DNA of 44,393 nucleotides, from the NCBI RefSeq assembly GCF_000564855.1, contig NZ_AYXG01000033.1, positions 1 to 44,393 of the forward strand, given 5' to 3'. The number at the start of each line of letters is the position of its first letter. Within the stretch, counting starts at the first letter, position 1. The translations under genes and the position numbers were made by a program. Under the pieces are notes generated by a model that saw nothing but the letters and a program-made list of their open reading frames with translations, did not search any database and had not been told where the DNA came from. This DNA comes from Actinokineospora spheciospongiae (GTDB lineage Bacteria > Actinomycetota > Actinomycetes > Mycobacteriales > Pseudonocardiaceae). Below are positions 5,505 to 43,814 of the stretch, in pieces.

Positions 5505-6250
5505 GACATCTTCGCGACGATCGGCAGTGGCAGGTTGCGCATGGCGAAGCCGAGCAGGGTCCACGGCCACGACGGGGCGCACGCCTCGGCCACCTCGCGC
5601 TCGATGGCCTTCACCATCGCCCGCACCCCGGGCACGGTGTCGACCATCAGCGGGGTCTTCTTGACCTTGTCGTTCATCTCCGAGCGGATGTAGCCCGGGT
5701 AGATCGTGCTGACCTTGATCGGCGTCTTGAGCGTGTCGACGCGGATGCCCTCGGCCAGCGCGGCGATCCCGGCCTTGGTGGCGGCGTAGGTGGACAGGTT
5801 GCCGCGCATCCCGCGCATCGCGCTCATCGAGGAGATGACGACCAGGTGGCCGGAGTCCTGCTCGCGGAACGCCTCCATCGCGGCCTCGCACTGGGCGAGC
5901 GCGGCGACGAAGTTGGTCTCCGCGGTCTGCTTGTTGGCGTAGAAGTAGCCGGTGCCGATCGGCTGCCCCTTGCCCAAGCCCGCGTTGACGACCACGCGGT
6001 CGAGCGTGCCCAGTTCCTCGCGGAACTCGCCGAACACCTTGAACACGGCGTCGTGGTCGTTGACGTCGAGCGCCCGGACGGCGACGGTGATGCCCGGGTA
6101 GGTCGCGGTCAGCTCCGCGCGCAGCTCGTCGAGCCGGTCGGTGCGGCGCGCGGCCAGCGCCAGGTTTCGGCCCAGCGCGGCGAACTGCCTGGCCATCTCC
6201 TCGCCCAGGCCGGAGCTGGCCCCGGTGATGAGGATGTTCTTGCGGCTCAC
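5501..6250 (-). CDS. Short-chain dehydrogenase/reductase (SDR), operon copy 2
   Basis: The 249-residue classical SDR has the glycine motif GASSGLG (10-16), VVNAGLG (88-93), catalytic region VVISSMSAM (137-145) and YAATK (Tyr155, Lys159). The C-terminal IEREVAEACAPSWPWTLLGFAMRN tail has a hydrophobic amphipathic end, as in several membrane-associated lipid SDRs. The start is GTG at 6250, overlapping the preceding stop (GTGA). The position between SDR1 and the kinase suggests it acts on a hydroxy- or keto-acyl intermediate of the same pathway. The exact substrate and whether NAD or NADP is used cannot be told from sequence alone. Confidence 0.9.
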   Translation of the reverse strand: MSRKNILITGASSGLGEEMARQFAALGRNLALAARRTDRLDELRAELTATYPGITVAVRALDVNDHDAVFKVFGEFREELGTLDRVVVNAGLGKGQPIGTGYFYANKQTAETNFVAALAQCEAAMEAFREQDSGHLVVISSMSAMRGMRGNLSTYAATKAGIAALAEGIRVDTLKTPIKVSTIYPGYIRSEMNDKVKKTPLMVDTVPGVRAMVKAIEREVAEACAPSWPWTLLGFAMRNLPLPIVAKMS

Positions 6251-32886: not shown

Positions 32887-35800
32887 TCAGTCGGCGGCGA
32901 ACGCGGCCAGCAGCGCCCGGACGTGGTCGGCCTCGGGGACCGCGAGGCCCTCGAACACCGGCAGCGCCGCCCGCCAGTCGACCACCGCGCCCCGGCGGTC
33001 GCCGCCGTGCTGGCGGATCAGCGCGCGCACGTGCCTGGCCCGCGCCTCGGCCAGCCGCTGCCCGGAGCGCGCCGCCACCGACAGGCCGCGCTCGACGTGG
33101 TCGCCCGCGGAGTCCGGCTCGCCCGCGTCGAGGTGGGCGTGCGCCAGCTCGGTGAGGGCACGGGCCTCCAGCAGCCGCATCCCGGTGTCGCGCATCAGGG
33201 CCAGGGCGCCGAAGCCGTGGTGGATGGCGGCGCGGGGGTCGCCGGTGCGGCGGGCCAGCGCGCACAGGCCGGTGAGCACCGAGGCCTCGCCGTAGCCGAA
33301 GCGGATCTCCCGGGCCAGGTCCAGCGCCCTGGCGTAGTGGTCCGCCGCGGCCGACCACTCGCCGGTGCGCTGGGCGATGGTGCCCAGGATGTCCAGGCAG
33401 CTCACCTCGTGCCGCCGCTCCCCCAGTTGCCGGTTGGCCTCCATCGCGTGCCGGACCTGGGCCGCGGCCGCGGCGTGGTCGCCCGCGTCGCAGCCGGTCT
33501 CGGCCAGGCAGACCAGCATGCTGACCTCGCCGTGGCGGTAGCCGTAGCGCCTGCACACCGACAGCGCGTGCCGGTAGCGCTCGGTGGCCCTGGGCAGGTC
33601 GCCCATCGCCCAGTGCGCCAGGCCCAGCCCCTGGCAGGCGGCGGCCTGCACGTGCCGGTGCCCGACCCGGGTGCTCAGCTCCAGCGCCTCGGTGTGCCGG
33701 GCCAGGGCCTCCTCCGGCCTGCCCAGCGACAGCGCGGCGACCCCCAGGTAGTGCAGGGCGCCCGCCTCGCCGAACCGGTTGCCGATGGCCCGGTTGAGCT
33801 CCAGCGACCGCTCGTAGAACGCCGAGGCCTGCGCGGGCTGCCCGAGCTGGGAGTGCGCGCGGCCCAGGTTGTGCAGGGCGCCCGCCTCGACCACCCGGTT
33901 GCCGGTGCCCTGGCTCAGCTCCAGCGCCCACCCGTGGTGCTCGATGGCGGCGGCGTAGTCGCTGAGGTTGCAGTGGACCAGCCCGAGCAGGTCGTGCACG
34001 GAGGCCTCGGCGTCGACGTCGGCGCAGGAGCGGGCGGCGGCCAGGGCGGCGCGGCCCACGGCGAGCCCGTCGGCGCCGTGGCCGCGGTTGAAGAAGAAGG
34101 CCCGCAGCGCCTCGGCGAAGCGCCACGCGTACCGGGGCAGGCCCAGGCCGGTGGCCTCGGTGGCGGCGGCGACCAGGTTGCCCAGTTCGGCGTCGAGCCA
34201 GGCCAGGGCGGTGTCCTCGGCGCCCGCGGGGCGGGGCAGCCCGACCCGCCACAGCACGGCGCTGTGGGTCTCGACCTCGCGCAGGTAGTGGTCGAACAGC
34301 GCCACGAGGGCGGCGGTGTGCTCCCCGGCGCCCGCACCTCCTCCAGTGCCGCCTCCCGCACCGCCTTCAGTGCTGCCTGCCGCGTCGCCTTCGGCGCGGT
34401 CCTTGGCGTAGTCGCGCAGCAGGTCGTGCAGGGCGTAGCGGCCCCGGCTCTGCTCGCGGATCAGGTTGCCGTGGTGCAGCACCCGCAGCAGCCGCGCCGC
34501 CTCGGGCACCGCCAGGCCGCCCAGGGCCGCCGCGGCGGCGGGGGTCAGGTCGGCGCCGGGCACCAGCCCGAGCAGGCGGAACAGCCTGCGCGCGCCCGGG
34601 GTGAGCTTGGCGTAGGACAGGTCGAACGCGGCGCGCACGGCGGCGGAGTCGTCGCCGGTGACCGCCAGCCCGCTGAGCCTGCCGCGGTCGCGCAGCTCGC
34701 GGGTGTAGTCGGCGATGCTCACCAGCGGCCGCACGGCCAGGTTCGCGCCCGCGATGCGCAACGCCAGCGGCAGGTGCCCGCACACCCCGGCCATCTCGGC
34801 GGTCGCCTCGGGCTCGCGGCGCAGCCGGGCCGAGCCGACCATCCGCCCCAGTAGCTGCACCGCCTCGGCCGGGCCGAGCACGTCCAGCGGGAGCTGGTGC
34901 GCGCCGTCCTGGGCGGTGAGGCCGGTGAGCCGGTCGCGGCTGGTGACCAGGACCAGGCAGCCGGGCGAGCCGGGCAGCAGCGGGCGGACCTGCTCTGCGG
35001 TGGCGGCGTTGTCGAGCACGACCAGGACCCGCCTGCCGGTGAGCAGGGTGCGGTACAGGCCCGCCGCCTCGTCGGTGTCGACCGGGACCCGCTCCGGCGG
35101 CACGCCCAGCGCGTGCAGGAACCGGACGAGGACCTGGTGGGTGCTCAGCGGGGTGCCCTTGGCGTACCCGAGCAGGTTGACGCAGAGCTGCCCGTCGGGG
35201 AAGCGGCCGCGGGCGCGGTGCGCCCAGCGCAGCGCCAGCGCGGTCTTGCCGACCCCGGCGGTGCCGGACACCACGACCGGGACCACCCCGGTGTCGACCC
35301 GGCCGAGCAGGGCGTCGAGGTCGGCCAGCGGGGTGTCGCGGCCGACGAACCCCGGCGACTCGGCGGGGAGCTGCGCCGGGACCGGCGGCCCCGGCGGGGT
35401 CCGCGGGTCGGGCCGCGGCGGCTGGGCGCGCAGCACCCGCAGGTGCGCCTCCCGCACCTCCCGGCCCGGTTCGACGCCGAGGTCCTCGTCGAGGCGGGCG
35501 CGCAGGTCGGTGAACACCCGCAGCGCCTCGGCCTGCTCGCCGGTGCCCGCCAGGCCCAGCATCAGCCGGGCGTGCAGGCCCTCGTGCAGCGGCTCGTCGG
35601 GGACCAGCGCGCGCAGGGCGCCGACCACGCCCGCGTGCTCGCCCAGCGGCAGCGCCAGGTCGGCGTAGGTGAGCGCGGTCGCCTTGCGGCACACCCCGAG
35701 CGCCACCGCGGTCGGGTGCCCGCGCAGGCGCTCGGGCAGGTCGGCCAGCACCGGGCCGCGCCAGCAGGCCAGCGCCTCGGCGTGCAGTTGCGCGGCGGTG

Positions 35801-36372
35801 GCGCCGTCGGCGGTGCGGGCGCGGGCGACCAGCTCCTCGAAGCGCAGCAGGTCGAGCTGCTCGGGGGTGGCGCCGAGCCGGTAGCCGCCGGGGACCGAGG
35901 CGATCGAGCGGCCCCCGGGGTCCAGGGTGCGGCGCAGCCGGGAGACGTAGGTGTGGACCAGGCCGAGGCAGCTCGCGGGCGGGTCCTCGCCCCAGAGCAC
36001 GTCGACGACCTCCTCGTGCGAGACCCGGTGGTTGGCGTTGAGCGCCAGCAGGGCCAGCAGGGACCGCTGCTTGACCGCGCCCGGCCGCAACTGCTGCCCG
36101 CCGTGGGCGACGCTGAACGCGCCGAGCACCCCCAGCCGCAGCGGCGGGGCCGCGTCGGCGTGGGTGTCGAGGGCGTCCGGGGCGACCCCGACGGCGGCGG
36201 CGAGCCTGCGCACCGATTCCACCCTCGGCCTGCCGACGCCGCCGCGCTCGATGTAGCGCAGGGCGCGCACGCTGAGCCCGGACCGGGCGGCCAGCTCGCC
36301 CTGGGTCAGCCCGGCGCGCAGCCGGTGCGCGCGCACCGCCGCGCCGAACGAGCCGGGGGCACCGGGGTCCAT
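32887..36372 (-). CDS. Large regulator: XRE HTH + SARP (OmpR-type wHTH, BTAD) + NB-ARC + TPR
   Basis: The 1161-residue protein starts with an XRE helix-turn-helix (RLRAGLTQGELAARSGLSVRALRYIERGGVGRPR, about 17-50), then an AfsR/SARP DNA-binding domain (LRLGVLGAFSVAHGGQQLRPGAVKQRSLLALLALN, VSHEEVVDVLWG, VHTYVSRLRRTLDP, SVPGGYRL), the BTAD helices (about 175-320), an NB-ARC ATPase with P-loop VSGTAGVGKTALALRWAHR and VLVVLDNA, and about eight TPRs to the end. Such regulators switch on secondary metabolism; the ATPase/TPR part senses a signal. AAAGGA precedes ATG 36372. It is divergent from the PLA2 fusion gene, which may be a target. Two DNA-binding domains in one chain is uncommon. Confidence 0.92.
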   Translation of the reverse strand: MDPGAPGSFGAAVRAHRLRAGLTQGELAARSGLSVRALRYIERGGVGRPRVESVRRLAAAVGVAPDALDTHADAAPPLRLGVLGAFSVAHGGQQLRPGAVKQRSLLALLALNANHRVSHEEVVDVLWGEDPPASCLGLVHTYVSRLRRTLDPGGRSIASVPGGYRLGATPEQLDLLRFEELVARARTADGATAAQLHAEALACWRGPVLADLPERLRGHPTAVALGVCRKATALTYADLALPLGEHAGVVGALRALVPDEPLHEGLHARLMLGLAGTGEQAEALRVFTDLRARLDEDLGVEPGREVREAHLRVLRAQPPRPDPRTPPGPPVPAQLPAESPGFVGRDTPLADLDALLGRVDTGVVPVVVSGTAGVGKTALALRWAHRARGRFPDGQLCVNLLGYAKGTPLSTHQVLVRFLHALGVPPERVPVDTDEAAGLYRTLLTGRRVLVVLDNAATAEQVRPLLPGSPGCLVLVTSRDRLTGLTAQDGAHQLPLDVLGPAEAVQLLGRMVGSARLRREPEATAEMAGVCGHLPLALRIAGANLAVRPLVSIADYTRELRDRGRLSGLAVTGDDSAAVRAAFDLSYAKLTPGARRLFRLLGLVPGADLTPAAAAALGGLAVPEAARLLRVLHHGNLIREQSRGRYALHDLLRDYAKDRAEGDAAGSTEGGAGGGTGGGAGAGEHTAALVALFDHYLREVETHSAVLWRVGLPRPAGAEDTALAWLDAELGNLVAAATEATGLGLPRYAWRFAEALRAFFFNRGHGADGLAVGRAALAAARSCADVDAEASVHDLLGLVHCNLSDYAAAIEHHGWALELSQGTGNRVVEAGALHNLGRAHSQLGQPAQASAFYERSLELNRAIGNRFGEAGALHYLGVAALSLGRPEEALARHTEALELSTRVGHRHVQAAACQGLGLAHWAMGDLPRATERYRHALSVCRRYGYRHGEVSMLVCLAETGCDAGDHAAAAAQVRHAMEANRQLGERRHEVSCLDILGTIAQRTGEWSAAADHYARALDLAREIRFGYGEASVLTGLCALARRTGDPRAAIHHGFGALALMRDTGMRLLEARALTELAHAHLDAGEPDSAGDHVERGLSVAARSGQRLAEARARHVRALIRQHGGDRRGAVVDWRAALPVFEGLAVPEADHVRALLAAFAAD

Positions 36373-36760: not shown

Positions 36761-38953
36761 ATGAGCGGCGGCGCGCCGCCCGAGCGCGATCCGGCTGGGC
36801 GCCGGGTCCGGTCCCGGCTGGGCTGGCTGGTGCTGGTCGTGCTGGCCGCCGCCGGGTTCGCGGTGGTCGCCTCCCGCTCCCCGGCCCCGGCGGAGCACCC
36901 GCCCACCGGCGACGTGGCCCGCGCGGCGACCGCGGTGGACGCCCTGCTGCACCCCAGTTCCGGCCGCGACCCGCTGGCCGAACTGCCCGCCGACTTCACC
37001 GCCGAGGTGGGCGTGGTGCCCGACCGGCTCCCCGCCCCCGACGGCACCACCCGGTCGGTGCACGTCGACGGCGGCTGCTCGACCCCGTGGGGCGACGACG
37101 ACACCCGGTGGGACTTCTCGGTCGGCTGCAAGGCCCACGACCTGGGCTACGACCTGCTGCGCTACGCCGCGGCGAAGGGGCAGCCGCTGCCCCCGGACGC
37201 GCGCCGCGACCTCGACGCGCGGCTGTCGGCGGACATGCACCGGCAGTGCGAGCTGAACCCGCGCGGCTCCGGCGGCACCTGCCGGGTGGTCGCCTCGCTG
37301 TACTCGGCGGGCCTGGTGGCCAACTCCTGGCACCAGCGCTGGGGTCCGCCGGTGAGCGAGCCGATGGGCGGGTGGGCGATGGCGGCGCTGGTGGTGGTCG
37401 TGCTGCTGGCGGTGCGGGTGCCCGCGTTCGCCAGGCGCCGGGTGCCGCGCGAGGACGCGCACCGGTTGACCGAGGCCGAGGGCGACCGGGCCGCCTACCT
37501 GGGCCTGGTGCGGCTGCTGAGCCTGGGCGGGATCGTGCTGGCGGAGTCGGTGCTGGCGTTCGGCCCGCTGCTGTCGGTGCCGGTGGCCGACCTGTGGCCG
37601 GTGACCTGGCTGCTGCAACTGGTGCCGCTGTTCTTCTTCGCGGGCGGCAACTCCAACCTGCTGGCCTGGCGCGCGGCGCGGGCGGCGGGCACCGGCTACG
37701 GCGGGTACCTGGCGCGGCGGGTGTCCTGGCTGATCCGGCCGGTGCTGGCGTTCGTCACCGCGTGGTTGGTGGTGCCGCTGTCGCTGGACCTGCTCGACGC
37801 CCCGGACGCGGTGGTGGCCGCCTTCGGCAGGCTCGTCGCGCAGCCGCTGTGGCTGCTCGGGCTGTACCTGCTGGTGGTCGGCGCGGCCCCGGTCGCGCAG
37901 TGGGCGCACGAGCGGGCGCCGCTGCTCACCCCGGCCGCCCTGGCCGCGGGCGTGGTCGGGCTCGCGGTCGCCGGGTCCGGCTCGGTCGCCGCGCACCTCG
38001 GCGGGATCGTGCTGGCGCTGTTCTTCGGGCAGCTTTCGTTCCTCTACGCCGACGGCACGCTGTGGCGGCCGCGCAGGCGGGTGCCCGCGGTGGTCGCCGC
38101 GGGCGCGCTGCTCGGGCTGGTGCTGCTGACCACGGTCTTCGGCTCCTCCCCCGGGCTGATCGCCGAACCCGCCGAGACGGCCAGCTTCGTGCCGTCGGCG
38201 CCCGCGGTGCTGCTGCTCGGGCTGGCCCAGGTGTGCCTGGTGGTGGCGCCGGGCCCGGCCGGGGTGCGGGCGGTGGCGCGCGGGGCGGCGGTGCGGGCGG
38301 TGCGCTTCGCCCGGTCGGCGCCGATGACGGTCTACCTGGTGTACCTGTGCGCGCTGCTGCTGCTGGCCGGGGTGGTCGGCGCGCTGCGCTGGACCCGGGC
38401 CGCCGGGTGGGTGCCCTCCCCGCGCACGCTGGCCGCGATCGGGCTGCTGGCGGTGCCGACGGCGCTGGCGTTCCTGCTGTTCGAGCGGCACCGGCACACC
38501 CCGGAGCCGGTGGCGGAGCACCCGCGCCCGGGCAGCCGCTGGGAGGTGGTGGCCGCGACGCTGGGCACCGCCTACGGCGCGCTGGGCATCGTCGGGTTCG
38601 CGGTGACCGGGCTGACCGGCACCGGGCACGGCGCGGTGGTGCTGGGGATGCCGATGGACCCGATGGCGGGGGTGATCCACCTGCTGCTGGGCTGGTACCT
38701 GCTGCACTCGGTGCGGGTGGGCACCGGCGCGACGCCGTGGCCGTGGCTGCTGGCGGCGGTGGCCTGCGTGCCGCCGATGGTCACCACGGTCAGCGACACC
38801 GGCGACGTTGTGCACTCGATCACCATCGGCGTGGCGCTGCTGGCGGCCGTGGCCACCGCGTGGCCGCGGCGCGGACCGGGGCGTCCGGGCAGCTCGGAGC
38901 CGGTGTCGCGGCGACCGGCACGGGTGAACGGGGGTTCCGGGGTGCCCGGCTGA
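36761..38953 (+). CDS. Phospholipase A2-like / acyltransferase-3-like / DUF4383-like membrane fusion protein
   Basis: The 730-residue protein has three parts. First, a basic N-terminus, TM1 (about 20-37) and an extracellular prokaryotic PLA2-like domain (about 100-195): GGCSTPWGDDDTRWDFSVGCKAHDLGY with the catalytic-type His126-Asp127 and four cysteines (106, 123, 163, 174) as in Streptomyces PLA2. Second, from about 246 a multi-helix region like membrane acyltransferase family 3 (LWPVTWLLQLVPLFFFAGGNSNLLAWRAAR; RRVSWLIRP). Its conserved R-X10-H is R251-X10-Glu262, and the later YLWH position reads YLVY (Tyr528), so both usual His are absent. Third, from about 593 a DUF4383-like unit (GIVGFAVTGLTGTGHGAVVLGMPMDPMAGVIHLLLG). 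Likely hydrolyses or handles phospholipid at the outer face (inference). ATG chosen; no good ribosome site. Confidence 0.8.
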   Translation: MSGGAPPERDPAGRRVRSRLGWLVLVVLAAAGFAVVASRSPAPAEHPPTGDVARAATAVDALLHPSSGRDPLAELPADFTAEVGVVPDRLPAPDGTTRSVHVDGGCSTPWGDDDTRWDFSVGCKAHDLGYDLLRYAAAKGQPLPPDARRDLDARLSADMHRQCELNPRGSGGTCRVVASLYSAGLVANSWHQRWGPPVSEPMGGWAMAALVVVVLLAVRVPAFARRRVPREDAHRLTEAEGDRAAYLGLVRLLSLGGIVLAESVLAFGPLLSVPVADLWPVTWLLQLVPLFFFAGGNSNLLAWRAARAAGTGYGGYLARRVSWLIRPVLAFVTAWLVVPLSLDLLDAPDAVVAAFGRLVAQPLWLLGLYLLVVGAAPVAQWAHERAPLLTPAALAAGVVGLAVAGSGSVAAHLGGIVLALFFGQLSFLYADGTLWRPRRRVPAVVAAGALLGLVLLTTVFGSSPGLIAEPAETASFVPSAPAVLLLGLAQVCLVVAPGPAGVRAVARGAAVRAVRFARSAPMTVYLVYLCALLLLAGVVGALRWTRAAGWVPSPRTLAAIGLLAVPTALAFLLFERHRHTPEPVAEHPRPGSRWEVVAATLGTAYGALGIVGFAVTGLTGTGHGAVVLGMPMDPMAGVIHLLLGWYLLHSVRVGTGATPWPWLLAAVACVPPMVTTVSDTGDVVHSITIGVALLAAVATAWPRRGPGRPGSSEPVSRRPARVNGGSGVPG

Positions 38954-39112: not shown

Positions 39113-40966
39113 GTGGAGTACCGGCCGCCTGGGTCAGGCAGCGCCGCGGGCCGGGAGCGGTCCGCCCAGGCACGTGCCGACCGCGGGAGAGGCGCCGAGC
39201 CCGGCGCCGCCCGGTCGGGGCGCCCGGCCGACCGCGTGCGCCAGTCCGCCGACCGCACCCGCCAGCCCGGGGACCGGGGCCGCCAGCCGGGCGAGCCCGC
39301 CGACCGCCGCCAGCCCCCGCCGGACCGCCGCGGTCGCGCCGCCGAGCCCGCCCGCGAACCCCGGGAGCGCCGCGGCGCCGCGGCGCGCGGCCGGACGCCC
39401 GAGCGCGCAGCCCGCCCCACGGCCGCCCGCGCCAACGCCGCGGCGCCCACCGAGAAGATCGCCCCGCGCGCCCGACCCGCCGCCGCCCCGGTCGCCGACC
39501 GGCGCCCCCGGTACGTCGCGGGCAAATCCCTGGTGACGCTGCTGTCGGCGGCGATGGTGGTCACCCTCGGCTACTACTGGAAGGTCACCGACGACTTCTC
39601 CGACGACCTGACCCGGGCGAACGTGATCGACGGCGCCTCGGTGGAGAAGCCGGCCGACGGCGCGATCGACATCCTGATGGTCGGCATGGACAGCCGAACC
39701 GACCCGCAGGGCAACCCGCTGTCGAAGGAGCGGCTCGCGGAGCTGCACGCGGGCGTGGCCGACGGCGAGGTCAACACCGACACGCTGATCCTGATCCGGA
39801 TTCCCAACGACGGCGGCAAGGCCACCGGCATCTCGATCCCGCGCGACTCCTACGTGGACATCCCCGGCCACGGCAAGCACAAGATCAACTCCGCCTACGG
39901 CCGGGCGAAGCTGCAGGCGTACGCGGGGTTGAAGGAGGACGGCGTCGGCGGCCGGGACCTGGAGGTGCGGTCGAACCTGGAGGGCGCCAAGAGCGTGATC
40001 GCCACGGTCAACAAGCTCACCGGCGCCACCGTCGACCACTACGCCGAGATCAACCTCTTCGGCTTCGCCGACATCACCCAGGCCATCGGTGGCGTCGAGG
40101 TCTGCCTGAACAAGGCGACCAAGGACAAGTTCTCCGGGGCGGACTTCCCCGCCGGGGTGCAGACCATCTCCGGGGTGCCCGCGCTGGCGTTCGTCCGGCA
40201 GCGGCACGGCCTGCCCAACGGCGACCTGGACCGGATCGTCCGCCAGCAGACGTTCATGGGGGCCATGGCGAAGAAGGTGTTCTCCCAGGACGTCATCGCC
40301 CCCGGCTCGGAGACCCTGCCCAAGCTGCAGGAGGCGATCTCCAAGTCGGTCGTGCTGGACGAGGACTGGAACATCATGCAGTTCGCCCAGCAGATGACCG
40401 GCATCACCGGCGGCAAGGTCGCCTTCGAGACCATCCCGCACGGCACCATCGACCTGCAGACGCCCAACGACGGCTCGGCGATCGAGATCGACCCGGACGA
40501 CGTGCGCGCCTTCGTCCGGCACCTGCTCACCCCGGACGCGCCGACCAGCAGCGCGGGCCCGAGCAGCGCCCCCGCGGGCGGCACCACGGAACCGGGGTCG
40601 ACCGAGGCGGAGTCCAAGCCGACCGTCAACGTCCTCAACGGCTCCGGCAGGACCGGCCTGGCCGCGGACGTGGTGAAGACGCTGACCGGCAAGGGGTTCA
40701 CCGAGGGCAGCACCGGCAACGCCGCGGCCCGCGCCAAGACCGTGATCCGCTACGCCACGGGCCAGCAGGACCTCGGCACGATGGTCGCCGACGCCCTCGG
40801 CGGCGACTACACCGTCGAGCAGGACTCCGACCTGGGCAAGGGCAAGGTCTCGGTGATCCTCGGCAAGGACTACACCACCGCCGACGGGTTCGGCGGCGCG
40901 CCCGCGCTCGACCTGGGCGCCCCGGCGCGCGCCGCGCTCCAGCCCGCGGTGCCCTGCATCAACTGA
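39113..40966 (+). CDS. LytR-CpsA-Psr (LCP) family protein with LytR_C domain
   Basis: The 617-residue protein has a disordered Arg/Pro/Ala-rich cytoplasmic N-terminus of about 130 residues, one TM helix (GKSLVTLLSAAMVVTLGYYW), the LCP catalytic domain (IDILMVGMDSRTD, VNTDTLILIRIPNDGGKATGISIPRDSYVDIPGHGKHKINSAYG, TGATVDHYAEINLFGFADITQAIGGVEVCLN, LAFVRQRHGLPNGDLDRIVRQQ) and a C-terminal LytR_C domain (KPTVNVLNGSGRTGLAADVVKTLTGKGF). LCP enzymes attach arabinogalactan-like or other glycopolymers to peptidoglycan. The key Asp and Arg residues (SRTD, PRDS, RQRH, DRIVRQ) are kept. GTG 39113 follows GGGGAGGAG. Confidence 0.94.
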   Translation: MEYRPPGSGSAAGRERSAQARADRGRGAEPGAARSGRPADRVRQSADRTRQPGDRGRQPGEPADRRQPPPDRRGRAAEPAREPRERRGAAARGRTPERAARPTAARANAAAPTEKIAPRARPAAAPVADRRPRYVAGKSLVTLLSAAMVVTLGYYWKVTDDFSDDLTRANVIDGASVEKPADGAIDILMVGMDSRTDPQGNPLSKERLAELHAGVADGEVNTDTLILIRIPNDGGKATGISIPRDSYVDIPGHGKHKINSAYGRAKLQAYAGLKEDGVGGRDLEVRSNLEGAKSVIATVNKLTGATVDHYAEINLFGFADITQAIGGVEVCLNKATKDKFSGADFPAGVQTISGVPALAFVRQRHGLPNGDLDRIVRQQTFMGAMAKKVFSQDVIAPGSETLPKLQEAISKSVVLDEDWNIMQFAQQMTGITGGKVAFETIPHGTIDLQTPNDGSAIEIDPDDVRAFVRHLLTPDAPTSSAGPSSAPAGGTTEPGSTEAESKPTVNVLNGSGRTGLAADVVKTLTGKGFTEGSTGNAAARAKTVIRYATGQQDLGTMVADALGGDYTVEQDSDLGKGKVSVILGKDYTTADGFGGAPALDLGAPARAALQPAVPCIN

Positions 40967-41005: not shown

Positions 41006-41033
41006 TCGCGTCAGGGTGCGGTGACCTCGCCTT

Positions 41034-41059
41034 CTCTCCAGTGGAACCCGGCTGGAGAG
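41034..41059. promoter_or_regulatory. Inverted repeat before the XRE regulator gene
   Basis: CTCTCCAG and CTGGAGAG, spaced by 10 bases, end 15 bp before the ATG at 41075. This could be the regulator's own operator or a 5' hairpin. If translation instead begins at GTG 41021 the repeat is coding. Confidence 0.35.
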
Positions 41060-41074
41060 GGGCGTGCGCGGCGC

Positions 41075-41560
41075 ATGGATGGAGCGGCGTACCAGCGGGT
41101 GCTGGGGGACGAGATCCGGAAGCTGCGCAAGAGCCGGGGCTGGACCCGCAAGGAGCTCAACGCCCGGCTGCCCAGCGGCATCTCGTTGCAGACCCTGGCG
41201 ACCTACGAGCTGGGCACCCGGCGGTGCTCGGTGCTGCGGTTCGTGGAGATCTGCCTGGCCCTGGGCGAACCGCCGCACCGGCTGCTGGCCCGGGTGCAGG
41301 CCCGCGTGGTCCCCGACGACCCGGCGGGCGGGGTCCGCCTCGACCTGCGCCGGGTCGCCCGGGAGCGGTCGCCGGAGCTGGCCCCGCTGCGCCGCTGGGC
41401 GGTCGAGCGGCTCGGCGGGCGCGACGGGGCGCGGCCGGTGCCGGTGCACCTGGACGTGGACGCGGTGGCGCGGATGGCGGAGCTGTGCGGGCTCCCGGCG
41501 CCGGACCTGCTCGCGCGGCTGCGCGACCTGTCGGACGCGCCGGAACCCCCGCACGGCTGA
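41075..41560 (+). CDS. XRE-family helix-turn-helix regulator
   Basis: The 161-residue protein opens MDGAAYQRVLGDEIRKLRKSRGWTRKELNARLPSGISLQTLATYELGTRRCSVLRFVEICLAL, a Cro/C1-type DNA-binding domain. The C-terminal half (DLRRVARERSPELAPLRRWAVERL; VPVHLDVDAVARMAELCGLPAPDLLARLRDL) is a small mixed fold of unknown ligand. ATG 41075 starts exactly at the HTH; GTG 41021 in frame would add 18 residues across the inverted repeat. Convergent with the flavin monooxygenase and sharing a large hairpin at its 3' end. Confidence 0.8.
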   Translation: MDGAAYQRVLGDEIRKLRKSRGWTRKELNARLPSGISLQTLATYELGTRRCSVLRFVEICLALGEPPHRLLARVQARVVPDDPAGGVRLDLRRVARERSPELAPLRRWAVERLGGRDGARPVPVHLDVDAVARMAELCGLPAPDLLARLRDLSDAPEPPHG

Positions 41561-41609: not shown

Positions 41610-43109
41610 TCAGCTCGCGGTGAGCTGCGGGGTCCGGCTGCGGGTGATCAGCTCGAAGTCGGCCGCGTCGACCTTGCGGGTCTTGAGCCAGTAGCGCCAG
41701 GTGAACCCGGGCCACAGGGTGCGGTTGACGCCCTGGGCGTCGAGGTACCAGCTCTTGCAGCCGCCCTGGGTCCAGACGCCCTCGCGGAGCTTGCGCTGGA
41801 TCTCGACGTTGAACTTCTCCTGCGCCGCCGGGCGGACGTCGATGGCCTCGACGTTGTGCCGCTCGGCGAGCTTCATCGCCTCGCGGATGTGGTTGAGCTG
41901 CGACTCGATCATGAACACGACCGAGTTGTGGCCCAGGCCGGTGTTCGGGCCGAGCAGGAAGAACAGGTTCGGGAAACCGGCGACGTTGATGCCGTTGTAG
42001 GTGGTGATGCCCGCCTCGGCCCACATCTTGCCCAGCTCGACACCGTCGCGGCCGGTGATGTCGAGGTGCTCCATGGAGTCGATGACCTGGAAGCCGGTGC
42101 CGTAGATGATGGCGTCGACCTCGATCTCGCGGCCGTCGTTGGTGACGATGCTCCTCGCCTTGACCTCGGCGACGCCGGAGGTGTCGAGGGAGACGTTGTC
42201 GCGGCGGAAGGCCGGGTAGTAGTCGTTGGAGATCAGGACGCGCTTGCAGCCCATGACGTAGTCCGGGGTGAGCTTGGCGACCAGCTCCGGGTCCCGCACG
42301 GACCGCTTGATGTTCCACGCGGCCAGCCTGGACGCCGCCTTGAGCATCCCCTGGTGGCCGTTGAAGCCGATCGCGCGGGCCTCGTTGAGCCAGTACAGGA
42401 AGTTGCGGTAGCCGCGGTGGGCGCCGGGGACCTTCGCCAGCGCCGTCTTGGCCCAGCCGGGCATGGCGTGGTCGGGCTTGGGCATGACCCACGGCGGAGT
42501 GCGCTGGAACAGGGTCAGCTCGGCGACCTGCTTGGCGATGCGCGGCATGAACTGCACCGCGCTGGCACCGGTGCCGATCACGGCGACCTTCTTGCCGGTG
42601 AGGTCGTAGTCGTGGTCCCAGCGCGCGGAGTGGAAGGCGGTGCCCTCGAAGTTCTCGATGCCGTTGAGGTGCGGGACCTGCGGCAGGTGCAGCGCACCAA
42701 TGCCCGCGACGACGTACTGCGCGACGTAGGTGTCACCGCCGGTGGTGGCGATGTACCAGCGGTTCTCCTCCTCGTCCCAGCGCCCGCCCGCGACCTCGAC
42801 GCCGAAGGTGGTGTTGCGGGCGAGGTCCCACTTGGCGGCCACGTCGCGCATGTACTGGTAGATCTCCGCCTGCGGGGCGAACGCGCGCGACCAGTCGGCC
42901 TTGGGCTCGAAGGAGAACGAGTACATGTGCGACTGGATGTCGCAGGCGCAGCCCGGGTAGCTGTTGTCGCGCCAGGTGCCGCCGAAGTCGTCGGCCTTCT
43001 CCAGCACGACGAAGTCCTCGCGGCCCTCCTTGCGGAGCTGGATGGCCATGCCCATGCCGGAGAACCCGGTGCCGACGATCACCACACCGGTGTGGATGAG
43101 TTTGCCCAT
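41610..43109 (-). CDS. Flavin-containing Baeyer-Villiger-type monooxygenase
   Basis: The 499-residue protein has the FAD-binding GTGFSG (13-18), GGTWRDNSYPGCACDIQSHMYSFSF (43-67), the NADPH-binding VIGTGASAVQ (178-187) and the BVMO fingerprint FEGTAFHSARWDHD (154-167), which matches F-x-G-x-x-x-H-x-x-x-W-D. BVMOs insert oxygen next to a ketone to give an ester or lactone; the relatives include mycobacterial EthA-like proteins. GGAGG lies 8 bases before the ATG 43109. It is divergent from a TetR gene 84 bp away, with an inverted repeat between, so TetR control by a ketone-like ligand is likely (inference). Substrate unknown. Confidence 0.93.
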   Translation of the reverse strand: MGKLIHTGVVIVGTGFSGMGMAIQLRKEGREDFVVLEKADDFGGTWRDNSYPGCACDIQSHMYSFSFEPKADWSRAFAPQAEIYQYMRDVAAKWDLARNTTFGVEVAGGRWDEEENRWYIATTGGDTYVAQYVVAGIGALHLPQVPHLNGIENFEGTAFHSARWDHDYDLTGKKVAVIGTGASAVQFMPRIAKQVAELTLFQRTPPWVMPKPDHAMPGWAKTALAKVPGAHRGYRNFLYWLNEARAIGFNGHQGMLKAASRLAAWNIKRSVRDPELVAKLTPDYVMGCKRVLISNDYYPAFRRDNVSLDTSGVAEVKARSIVTNDGREIEVDAIIYGTGFQVIDSMEHLDITGRDGVELGKMWAEAGITTYNGINVAGFPNLFFLLGPNTGLGHNSVVFMIESQLNHIREAMKLAERHNVEAIDVRPAAQEKFNVEIQRKLREGVWTQGGCKSWYLDAQGVNRTLWPGFTWRYWLKTRKVDAADFELITRSRTPQLTAS

Positions 43110-43157
43110 GGGCCGCGCCTCCGTGACTAGTATGTACCTGTTACCCGGAGTCAAGCT

Positions 43158-43168
43158 TACTCTGAGTA
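43158..43168. promoter_or_regulatory. Inverted repeat between monooxygenase and tetR genes
   Basis: TACTC-T-GAGTA, in the 84-bp divergent gap and overlapping the -35 zone of the tetR gene. An ACTAGT hexamer at 43124-43129 nearer the monooxygenase may be a second site. It probably binds the adjacent TetR protein. Confidence 0.6.
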
Positions 43169-43180
43169 GGTTACTTGCGG

Positions 43181-43186
43181 TAGAGT
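43181..43186 (+). promoter_or_regulatory. -10 box for leaderless tetR transcript
   Basis: TAGAGT lies exactly 7 bases before the GTG at 43194, with no ribosome site. Confidence 0.5.
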
Positions 43187-43193
43187 CAATCCC

Positions 43194-43814
43194 GTGACAA
43201 TGACCGGTGGCAAGGTTGAGCGCAAGCGACGAATGCCCCGCGCCGAGCGCGAGCGGCAGATGATGGCCGTCGCCGAGGAGATCTTCGCCGACCGGGGCTA
43301 CCTGGCCGCCTCCATGGACGACATCGCCGAGCTGTGCGGGGTCTCCAAGCCGATGATCTACGAGTACTTCGGCTCCAAGGAGGGCCTGCTCGTCGCCTGC
43401 ATCCGCCAGGCCCGCACCGAGCTGGCCAAGGCCACCACCGAGTCGGTCGTGGGGTCCACCAGCGCGGAGGAGGCCCTGCGCCGCGGCCTGGTCGCCTTCT
43501 TCGAGTTCACCGACACCCACCGCCGCGCCTGGTCGCTCATGCTGCGCAGCGAGGCCGCCGTGGCCGGACCGGCCGCCGCCGCGGAGATCGAGGCGGGCCG
43601 CCAGGAGCAGGTGGAGATCGACCTCGCCCTGTTCAAGGCCTTCCTGCCCGACGCCCCCCACCAGGACCTGGAGGCGGCCGCCCAGATCGTCGTCGGCGCC
43701 TGCGAGCGCCTGTCGCTGTGGTACGTCAACCAGGACGAGGTCACCGCCGAGCAGGCCGCCGACCACCTGATGCGGGCACTGTGGACCGGGCTGTCCAGCA
43801 TGGTCGAGAACTGA
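43194..43814 (+). CDS. TetR-family transcriptional regulator
   Basis: The 206-residue protein has the TetR HTH at about 18-65 (ERERQMMAVAEEIFADRGYLAASMDDIAELCGVSKPMIYEYFGSKEGLLVACI) and a helical ligand-binding domain with AWSLMLRSEAAVAG. The basic stretch KVERKRRMPRAER precedes it. Divergent from the flavin monooxygenase and the most likely owner of the TACTC-GAGTA site between them. GTG 43194 is used because of the -10 spacing; ATG two codons later is an alternative. Ligand unknown. Confidence 0.93.
   Translation: MTMTGGKVERKRRMPRAERERQMMAVAEEIFADRGYLAASMDDIAELCGVSKPMIYEYFGSKEGLLVACIRQARTELAKATTESVVGSTSAEEALRRGLVAFFEFTDTHRRAWSLMLRSEAAVAGPAAAAEIEAGRQEQVEIDLALFKAFLPDAPHQDLEAAAQIVVGACERLSLWYVNQDEVTAEQAADHLMRALWTGLSSMVEN

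Follow-up and report, generated by a model that had tools for sequence, protein, structure and literature searches.

A phospholipase A2 domain fused to an acyltransferase-3-derived membrane domain with replaced catalytic residues in Actinokineospora spheciospongiae and its relatives

The conserved residues of the TmAT superfamily, to which the acyltransferase-3 (AT3) proteins belong, have been described as an acyl-CoA site (PMC12423673). The same account calls the Arg of TMH1 essential in HGSNAT, OafB and OacB and the Asp dispensable in OacB; in OafA, the R14A and H25A substitutions gave 0.07% and 0.33% of wild type (PMC7448272). Acylation of inositol has been described for GWT1, a TmAT protein that has neither the DxxR Asp nor the catalytic His (PMC12423673). 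SGNH and alanine racemase domains are given as the two commonest fusion partners of AT3, and the terms "phospholipase" and "lipase" are absent from the main text of that source (PMC9558356). For the group of phospholipases A2 (PLA2) dealt with below, a His/Asp dyad and an Asp after the His are reported as critical (PMC11525133).

The window analysed here is a whole stretch of 44,393 nucleotides from A. spheciospongiae. An initial annotation had read one of its open frames as a PLA2 domain fused to an AT3-derived membrane domain without both conserved His residues, plus a DUF4383-like end, and this architecture was borne out by a PF09056 match, by intermediate proteins and by a profile match (Table 1). 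The encoded protein (the fusion) consisted, in order, of a TM helix, the PLA2 domain (PF09056), a second TM helix, the TmAT/AT3-derived membrane domain and the DUF4383-like end. A single Pfam match, PF09056, was obtained on the 730-aa protein, and NCBIfam gave none. Since PF01757 and PF14325 were absent from the family lists of the members, Pfam could not give the AT3 and DUF4383 labels directly; these stand via intermediates, namely stand-alone proteins and a profile comparison.

Table 1. Features of the fusion gene and its neighbours (positions in the window)
Feature	Position	Strand	Basis
PLA2-TmAT-DUF4383-like fusion, 730 aa	36761..38953	+	open frame without internal stop; start codon predicted
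TM1, residues about 18-37	36812..36871	+	helix 11-37 in model
PLA2 domain, residues 90-197 (H126, D127, D152, four Cys)	37028..37351	+	PF09056 at 104-183; 1faz alignment; invariant residues
TM helix, residues 202-225, joining PLA2 to membrane domain	37364..37435	+	helix in model
TmAT/AT3-derived membrane domain, residues 243-580, without His262, His528, Asp248, Trp419	37487..38500	+	homology, fold
Glu262 codon, replacing catalytic His of R-X10-H	37544..37546	+	aligned with stand-alone AT3s
Tyr528 codon, replacing His of YLWH-type motif	38342..38344	+	aligned with stand-alone AT3s
DUF4383-like C-terminal helices, residues 593-705	38537..38875	+	profile match 96.1%
LCP (LytR-CpsA-Psr) gene	39113..40966	+	PF03816 136.3 bits, PF13399 62.4 bits (read from 39089)
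XRE-type helix-turn-helix gene, start uncertain	41021..41560	+	PF01381 27.4 bits
Divergent SARP/AfsR-like regulator (HTH, BTAD, NB-ARC, TPR)	32887..36372	-	Pfam; start by eye

A full-chain AlphaFold2 model (25 sequences in the alignment, mean pLDDT 78.1) comprised helix 11-37, a globular part, helix 202-225, the membrane-domain helices and a helical end. An Arg-rich stretch precedes TM1, and a conserved NSWHQRWGPP stretch lies before helix 202-225. Judged from charge, the N-terminus is probably inside, and an outward position of the PLA2 domain would fit the basic residues before TM1, after 202-225 and after 575. In one genome of the same genus (G179; L092 and L113), a single open frame carried the PLA2 and TmAT matches separately, with 117 bases between the two pieces, a lineage insertion separating the domains.

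The PLA2 domain scored above the curated cut-off of PF09056 (E 2.2e-7, 31.9 bits against 29.4, residues 104-183), and this family matched 25/25 members of alignment A1 (E up to 10). C106, C123, H126, D127, C163 and C174 were invariant in 40/40 sequences and D152 was kept in 25/25, so the PLA2-like domain with an active-site motif and four Cys proposed earlier stands. H64, D65 and D85 of 1faz aligned with H126, D127 and D152 of the fusion, which correspond to the dyad (H126, D127) and to the later Asp (D152). When a profile of 15 PLA2 domains was searched against PDB sequences, the PLA2 of T. borchii (4aup) came top (E 1.2e-4), and the next sequences were 8k1w, 7ygk and 1faz (E 0.036-0.11). Foldseek with the full model gave 4aup at probability 0.98 (E 0.72) and 8k1w at 0.93 (E 1.3), the PLA2 domain being the sole high-probability part among the best 50 of 173 rows. 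The calcium-loop Asp of PF09056 PLA2 was absent: two residues before C106, Gly104 was found in 25/25 members where 4aup and 8k1w carry Asp. We take this position to be a calcium ligand, Asp43 of the S. violaceoruber enzyme; with Gly104 instead of Asp, metal binding of the fusion PLA2 may differ from that of the 4aup/8k1w type. PLA2 activity of the fusion is presumed from the family match and the dyad.

PLA2-only relatives, which have no TmAT part, were seen in a single other family of the order, where three genomes carried them (L172, L173 and L174), L173 having two copies close together (ORFs at 5830 and 8281). Partial PLA2 matches occurred in records of Nocardia farcinica and Tsukamurella tyrosinosolvens.

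A direct assignment of the membrane domain by Pfam failed, PF01757 being listed for 0/25 members at E up to 10 (HMMER filters drop most matches above ~0.1). When 101 genomes of the order were searched with just the membrane domain, stand-alone proteins appeared at E 6.1e-28 and weaker, and 7/7 of those scanned were PF01757 members with 52-103 bits (cut-off 31). Via these intermediates, the resemblance to AT3 noted in the initial annotation was upheld. The domain was also folded alone (mean pLDDT 77.9, pTM 0.81). Its three best PDB fold matches were to human HGSNAT (probability 0.96, 0.89 and 0.91), a TmAT protein that topped the fold list only when the membrane domain was folded alone; these matches were weak by E-value (E 0.07-0.15, TM-scores 0.33-0.36). 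By homology to PF01757 members, and in fold by the HGSNAT matches, weak as these are by E-value, the membrane domain is a TmAT/AT3 descendant.

Kibdelosporangium copies (L043-L046, L051) lacked a membrane-domain loop at about residues 457-484 (window-protein numbering), a region that carries a conserved N..PP stretch in stand-alone AT3s. L051 came from a record titled Rhodococcus rhodnii NRRL B-16535; its fusion was, by eye, nearly identical to that of Kibdelosporangium L046, so the record is probably mislabelled.

The catalytic positions were compared in a joint alignment of 72 distinct fusions (23 genus codes, own count) and 49 of 50 stand-alone matches, one match below 30 bits having been left out beforehand. 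R251, E262 and Y528 of the fusion aligned with R, H and H of the stand-alone AT3s, confirming the R251-X10-Glu262 and the Tyr528 described earlier in place of His; the stand-alone proteins keep Asp248, Arg251, His262, Trp419 and His528. At position 262, His was present in 47/47 stand-alones with a letter there and in 0/72 fusions. Position 528 was His in 44/45 stand-alones (Gln in the other), and in the 72 fusions was Y in 41, F in 26, H in 3 (L094, L095 and L096), S in 1 and L in 1. The window protein, with G248, R251 and E262, does not carry the DxxRx10H motif of AT3. Main-clade counts cover 69/72 fusions, without the three half-lost ones (L094-L096), against 48/49 stand-alones, without S_L100, a fragment of a fusion. 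Among these 69, position 262 was Glu in 56, Gln in 9, Asp in 3 and Thr in 1, and D248, H262, W263, W419 and H528 were absent throughout. R251 was kept in 41 and absent in 28 of them (41/72 over all fusions), while R320 and Y525 were each kept in 71/72 fusions. The loss of two His residues given in the initial annotation thus holds, but its list was incomplete, Asp248 and Trp419 being gone as well and Arg251 in part.

The absence of the DxxR Asp, His262, Trp419 and His528 in 69/69 main-clade fusions, and of the Arg in 28/69, strengthens the earlier suggestion that the membrane part no longer transfers acyl groups, and we infer such a loss. GWT1, lacking both the DxxR Asp and the catalytic His, is described as active, so missing residues alone are no proof of inactivity. 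The membrane part might still be an acyltransferase of altered chemistry, with Glu262 replacing His and the PLA2 domain trimming or supplying acyl chains for acyl remodelling on a lipid or glycan. The acidic or amide residue at 262 in 68/69, the retained R320 and Y525, R251 in 41/69 and the precedent of GWT1 (PMC12423673) agree with this, as do AT3-SGNH proteins, in which an outward hydrolase-family domain is described as cooperating with AT3 (PMC9558356). We nevertheless regard it as unlikely, with D248, W419 and H528 gone from every main-clade fusion and R251 from 28 of them, since OafA with R14A or H25A falls to less than 1% (PMC7448272) and the TMH1 Arg is regarded as indispensable in HGSNAT, OafB and OacB (PMC12423673).

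Alternatively, the TmAT part might transport a small molecule or lysolipid in connection with the PLA2 reaction: a pore can open in the TmAT fold, proton coupling through Glu262 is conceivable, and the AT3 part of VanT, with its fused alanine racemase domain, has been proposed as an L-serine transporter (PMC9558356). However, Pfam gave no sequence match to transporter families in the 25 members, and transporter entries in the Foldseek lists were weak (probability 0.2 or less); we consider this role very improbable.

Among 396 genomes surveyed across the phylum (two candidates scored per genome, so that counts are lower bounds), the matches listed included a single one outside the family that was strong over both domains, L175 from another order (from the fragmented genome G413; 960 contigs, 4% contamination). 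The fusion was present in 1/3 genomes searched from that order. L175 scored 35.9 bits with PF09056 and 105.2 bits with PF01757, and keeps D248, R251, H262, W419 and H528. Regions of L094 and L096 (L177 and L178) scored 44.2 and 42.6 bits with PF01757, and all three were above the curated cut-off. L094-L096 lacked R251, H262 and W419, had D248 in 1/3 and kept His528. The initial annotation had held that homologues with His at 262 and 528 would contradict its reading, and L175 literally is such a homologue; its position as the outermost of the fusions points instead to an ancestral state.

This position was obtained from membrane-domain trees built without six trait columns. An 87-row tree (quick search) contained 33 of the 72 fusions, L175, which lies outside the set of 72, and 53 stand-alones, comprising 44/50 (six short or weak ones left out) and nine from the phylum survey; a second tree contained 43 of the 87 rows. 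The fusions fell on one side of a branch (SH-aLRT 96 with 87 rows; 94/95 with 43 rows), L175 lay outside all other fusions (support 99 and 100/99, respectively), and L094-L096 branched next. A constrained topology pairing L175 and the stand-alone AT3 from its congener, the one alternative placement examined singly, was disfavoured (p-AU 0.034). The trees were midpoint-rooted, and the direction of change rests on the stand-alones keeping the motifs. The fusions therefore form a series, with the site intact in L175, half-lost in L094-L096 and lost in the rest, and this order has moderate support. The simplest reading is one fusion event, after which the acyltransferase site was probably lost in two steps; we write "lost" rather than "never had" because the earliest-branching fusion has every motif intact.

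Outside the catalytic site the membrane domain was conserved. W283, Q286, G296, L363, P377 and L526 were kept in 69/69 main-clade fusions and W364 in 68/69; Q286, E575 and W303 were invariant in 69/69. Sixteen positions (including N299, R326, A419, P521 and E575) reached at least 95% in fusions and less than 60% in stand-alones. For seven close pairs, dN/dS values, which are rough (simple Nei-Gojobori method, GC-rich DNA), were 0.11-0.48 in the TmAT part, 0.05-0.34 in the PLA2 domain (the lowest of the parts in 7/7) and 0.16-0.72 in the C-terminal part (above TmAT in 4/7). Mean column identity was 78% for the PLA2 domain (15 sequences) versus 56% and 53% (25 sequences). Decay of the TmAT part as a relic was disfavoured by the near-fixed positions and by dN/dS below 1. 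A TmAT part that merely anchors an outward PLA2 domain would agree with the PLA2 being the most constrained part and with the hydrophobic N-terminal stretch of the PLA2-only relatives (L172-L174), but a mere anchor has no need of the invariant Q286, E575 and W303, or of the 16 near-fixed fusion-specific positions, and we think it decidedly unlikely. Replaced catalytic residues together with a conserved remainder suggest that the membrane part is kept for a new job, probably envelope upkeep.

The DUF4383-like unit of the initial annotation found support in a profile comparison. A profile of 25 C-terminal parts matched a DUF4383 profile (20 rows from the genus, 19 loci plus a seed from one of them) at 96.1% probability; the E-value was 3.2e-9 over 72 of 138 columns, and two control pairs reached 0.2% and 2.0%. 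PF14325 itself was listed for 0/25 members at E up to 10 (with the same HMMER filtering above ~0.1), and L175 (26.7 bits) and G045 (23.1 bits) stayed below its 27-bit cut-off. The C-terminal part would thus be a distant relative of DUF4383 only.

Full-length relatives were found at 24 named-genome loci, and 72 distinct fusions in all. In a family survey with three candidates scored per genome, full-protein matches occurred in at least 198/297 genomes and at least 32/46 genera; part of the 198 were stand-alone AT3s only (e.g. G004, G012 and G016), and matches at E 1e-60 or better, where the fusions lie, were present in at least 159/297 genomes (hand count).

From the fusion stop to the likely LCP start (GTG, picked from the GGAGGAG stretch preceding it) was 159 bases. 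An LCP gene lay downstream on the same strand in 24/24 named-genome loci (some near-copies) and an XRE-type gene in 23/24. Over all fusions, an LCP match was downstream in 56/72, a convergent AT3-like gene took its place in 10/72, and neither was seen in 6/72 (L094-L096, L097, L125 and L130); L097 had no room in its locus, and L114 of the same genome shows LCP. The 11-kb contig of L175 contained no LCP match. Directly upstream of the 24 loci were SARP genes in 15, a GGDEF gene in 8 and a contig end in 1. Thus, of the two neighbours named in the initial annotation, LCP is widespread but SARP only lineage-specific.

The ten loci with an AT3-like gene were L026, L029, L030, L063, L122, L127, L129, L134, L138 and L139, and a full DxxRx10H was read in five of the adjoining genes (L030, L063, L127, L134 and L139); the retired AT3 and its intact neighbour may act as partners in such loci. 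A flavin monooxygenase gene was near the fusion in 24/24 loci (41610-43814 in the window, and L031-L054) and a TetR-type gene in 22/24, both sometimes moved or inverted. In PADLOC neither the fusion nor the LCP protein was matched, and the XRE-type protein had only weak matches to RmrA (E 0.0015 and 0.0082), so a defence system was set aside. A plasmid-borne element was likewise rejected, with 2 partial PLA2 matches among 72,556 plasmid records.

From the computed domains, residue changes, constraint and gene linkage we propose, with our confidence evenly divided, that the fusion is a membrane-anchored PLA2 with a retired and repurposed TmAT module, engaged in envelope maintenance with an LCP partner in most of the family. 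The PLA2 domain, held outward between two TM helices, would cleave phospholipid in the outer leaflet or, alternatively, a lipid-linked envelope intermediate. The TmAT module would descend from an active AT3 fused to PLA2, would have lost stepwise the residues for acyl-CoA contact and catalysis, and may now bind, hold or pass lipid next to the PLA2 domain, residue 262 (Glu/Gln/Asp) being its new key residue; this lipid-handling role is conjectural, as is the holding, flipping or presenting of phospholipid put forward in the initial annotation. In most of the family the fusion would work with the LCP ligase of the neighbouring gene in cell-envelope upkeep, a partnership suggested by the gene linkage. 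It is a more doubtful extension that the emptied acyltransferase pore forms a lipid-handling gate for the outward PLA2 domain via the Glu262 site, one chain thereby recycling membrane lipid in step with glycopolymer attachment; the lipid passed or presented would then be a lysophospholipid, or the lipid carrier left by LCP-type glycopolymer transfer.

The intact, half-lost and fully lost forms make a natural series in which a membrane acyltransferase changes its role with a lipase fused to it, at a locus conserved in a large family of soil actinomycetes. The questions that become testable are what a TmAT fold can do once acyl transfer is gone, and whether the attachment of cell-wall glycopolymers is coupled to phospholipid turnover nearby. 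Searches for PLA2 with acyltransferase 3, PLA2 with Pseudonocardiaceae and pseudoenzyme with acyltransferase-3 returned nothing in the literature covered, which held few subscription journals, and titles and abstract openings of a wider set did not contain the architecture. Within that literature the PLA2-TmAT-DUF4383-like architecture is apparently undescribed, its component families being known.

Several known systems resemble its parts. The prokaryotic/group XIV secreted PLA2s (PF09056; 4aup, 8k1w and 1faz) share with the fusion the family, the dyad, the Asp after the His and two predicted disulfides, but they are secreted, whereas the fusion PLA2 is held between TM helices, and 4aup and 8k1w have Asp in place of its Gly104. 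The stand-alone AT3s of Actinomycetota (PF01757, TmAT superfamily CL0316) are homologous over the membrane domain (E down to 6.1e-28) and have W283, Q286, L363-W364, P377 and Q424 in common with it; unlike 25/25 fusion members they match PF01757 and are not joined to PLA2, and they keep the DxxR Asp, both His and the Trp419 that are replaced in 69/69 main-clade fusions. DUF4383 (PF14325) aligns by profile with the first part of the C-terminal region, which, in contrast to DUF4383, is part of a larger chain and is under the Pfam cut-off in the two scored relatives. AT3-SGNH proteins (OafB, OatA) likewise combine an outward hydrolase-family domain with an AT3-type membrane domain (PMC9558356), but their SGNH domain is C-terminal, while the PLA2 of the fusion is N-terminal and the catalytic His is absent. 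VanT, in which an AT3 of unproven role is joined to another enzyme, an alanine racemase (PMC9558356), resembles the fusion in this respect and differs in its partner and domain order.
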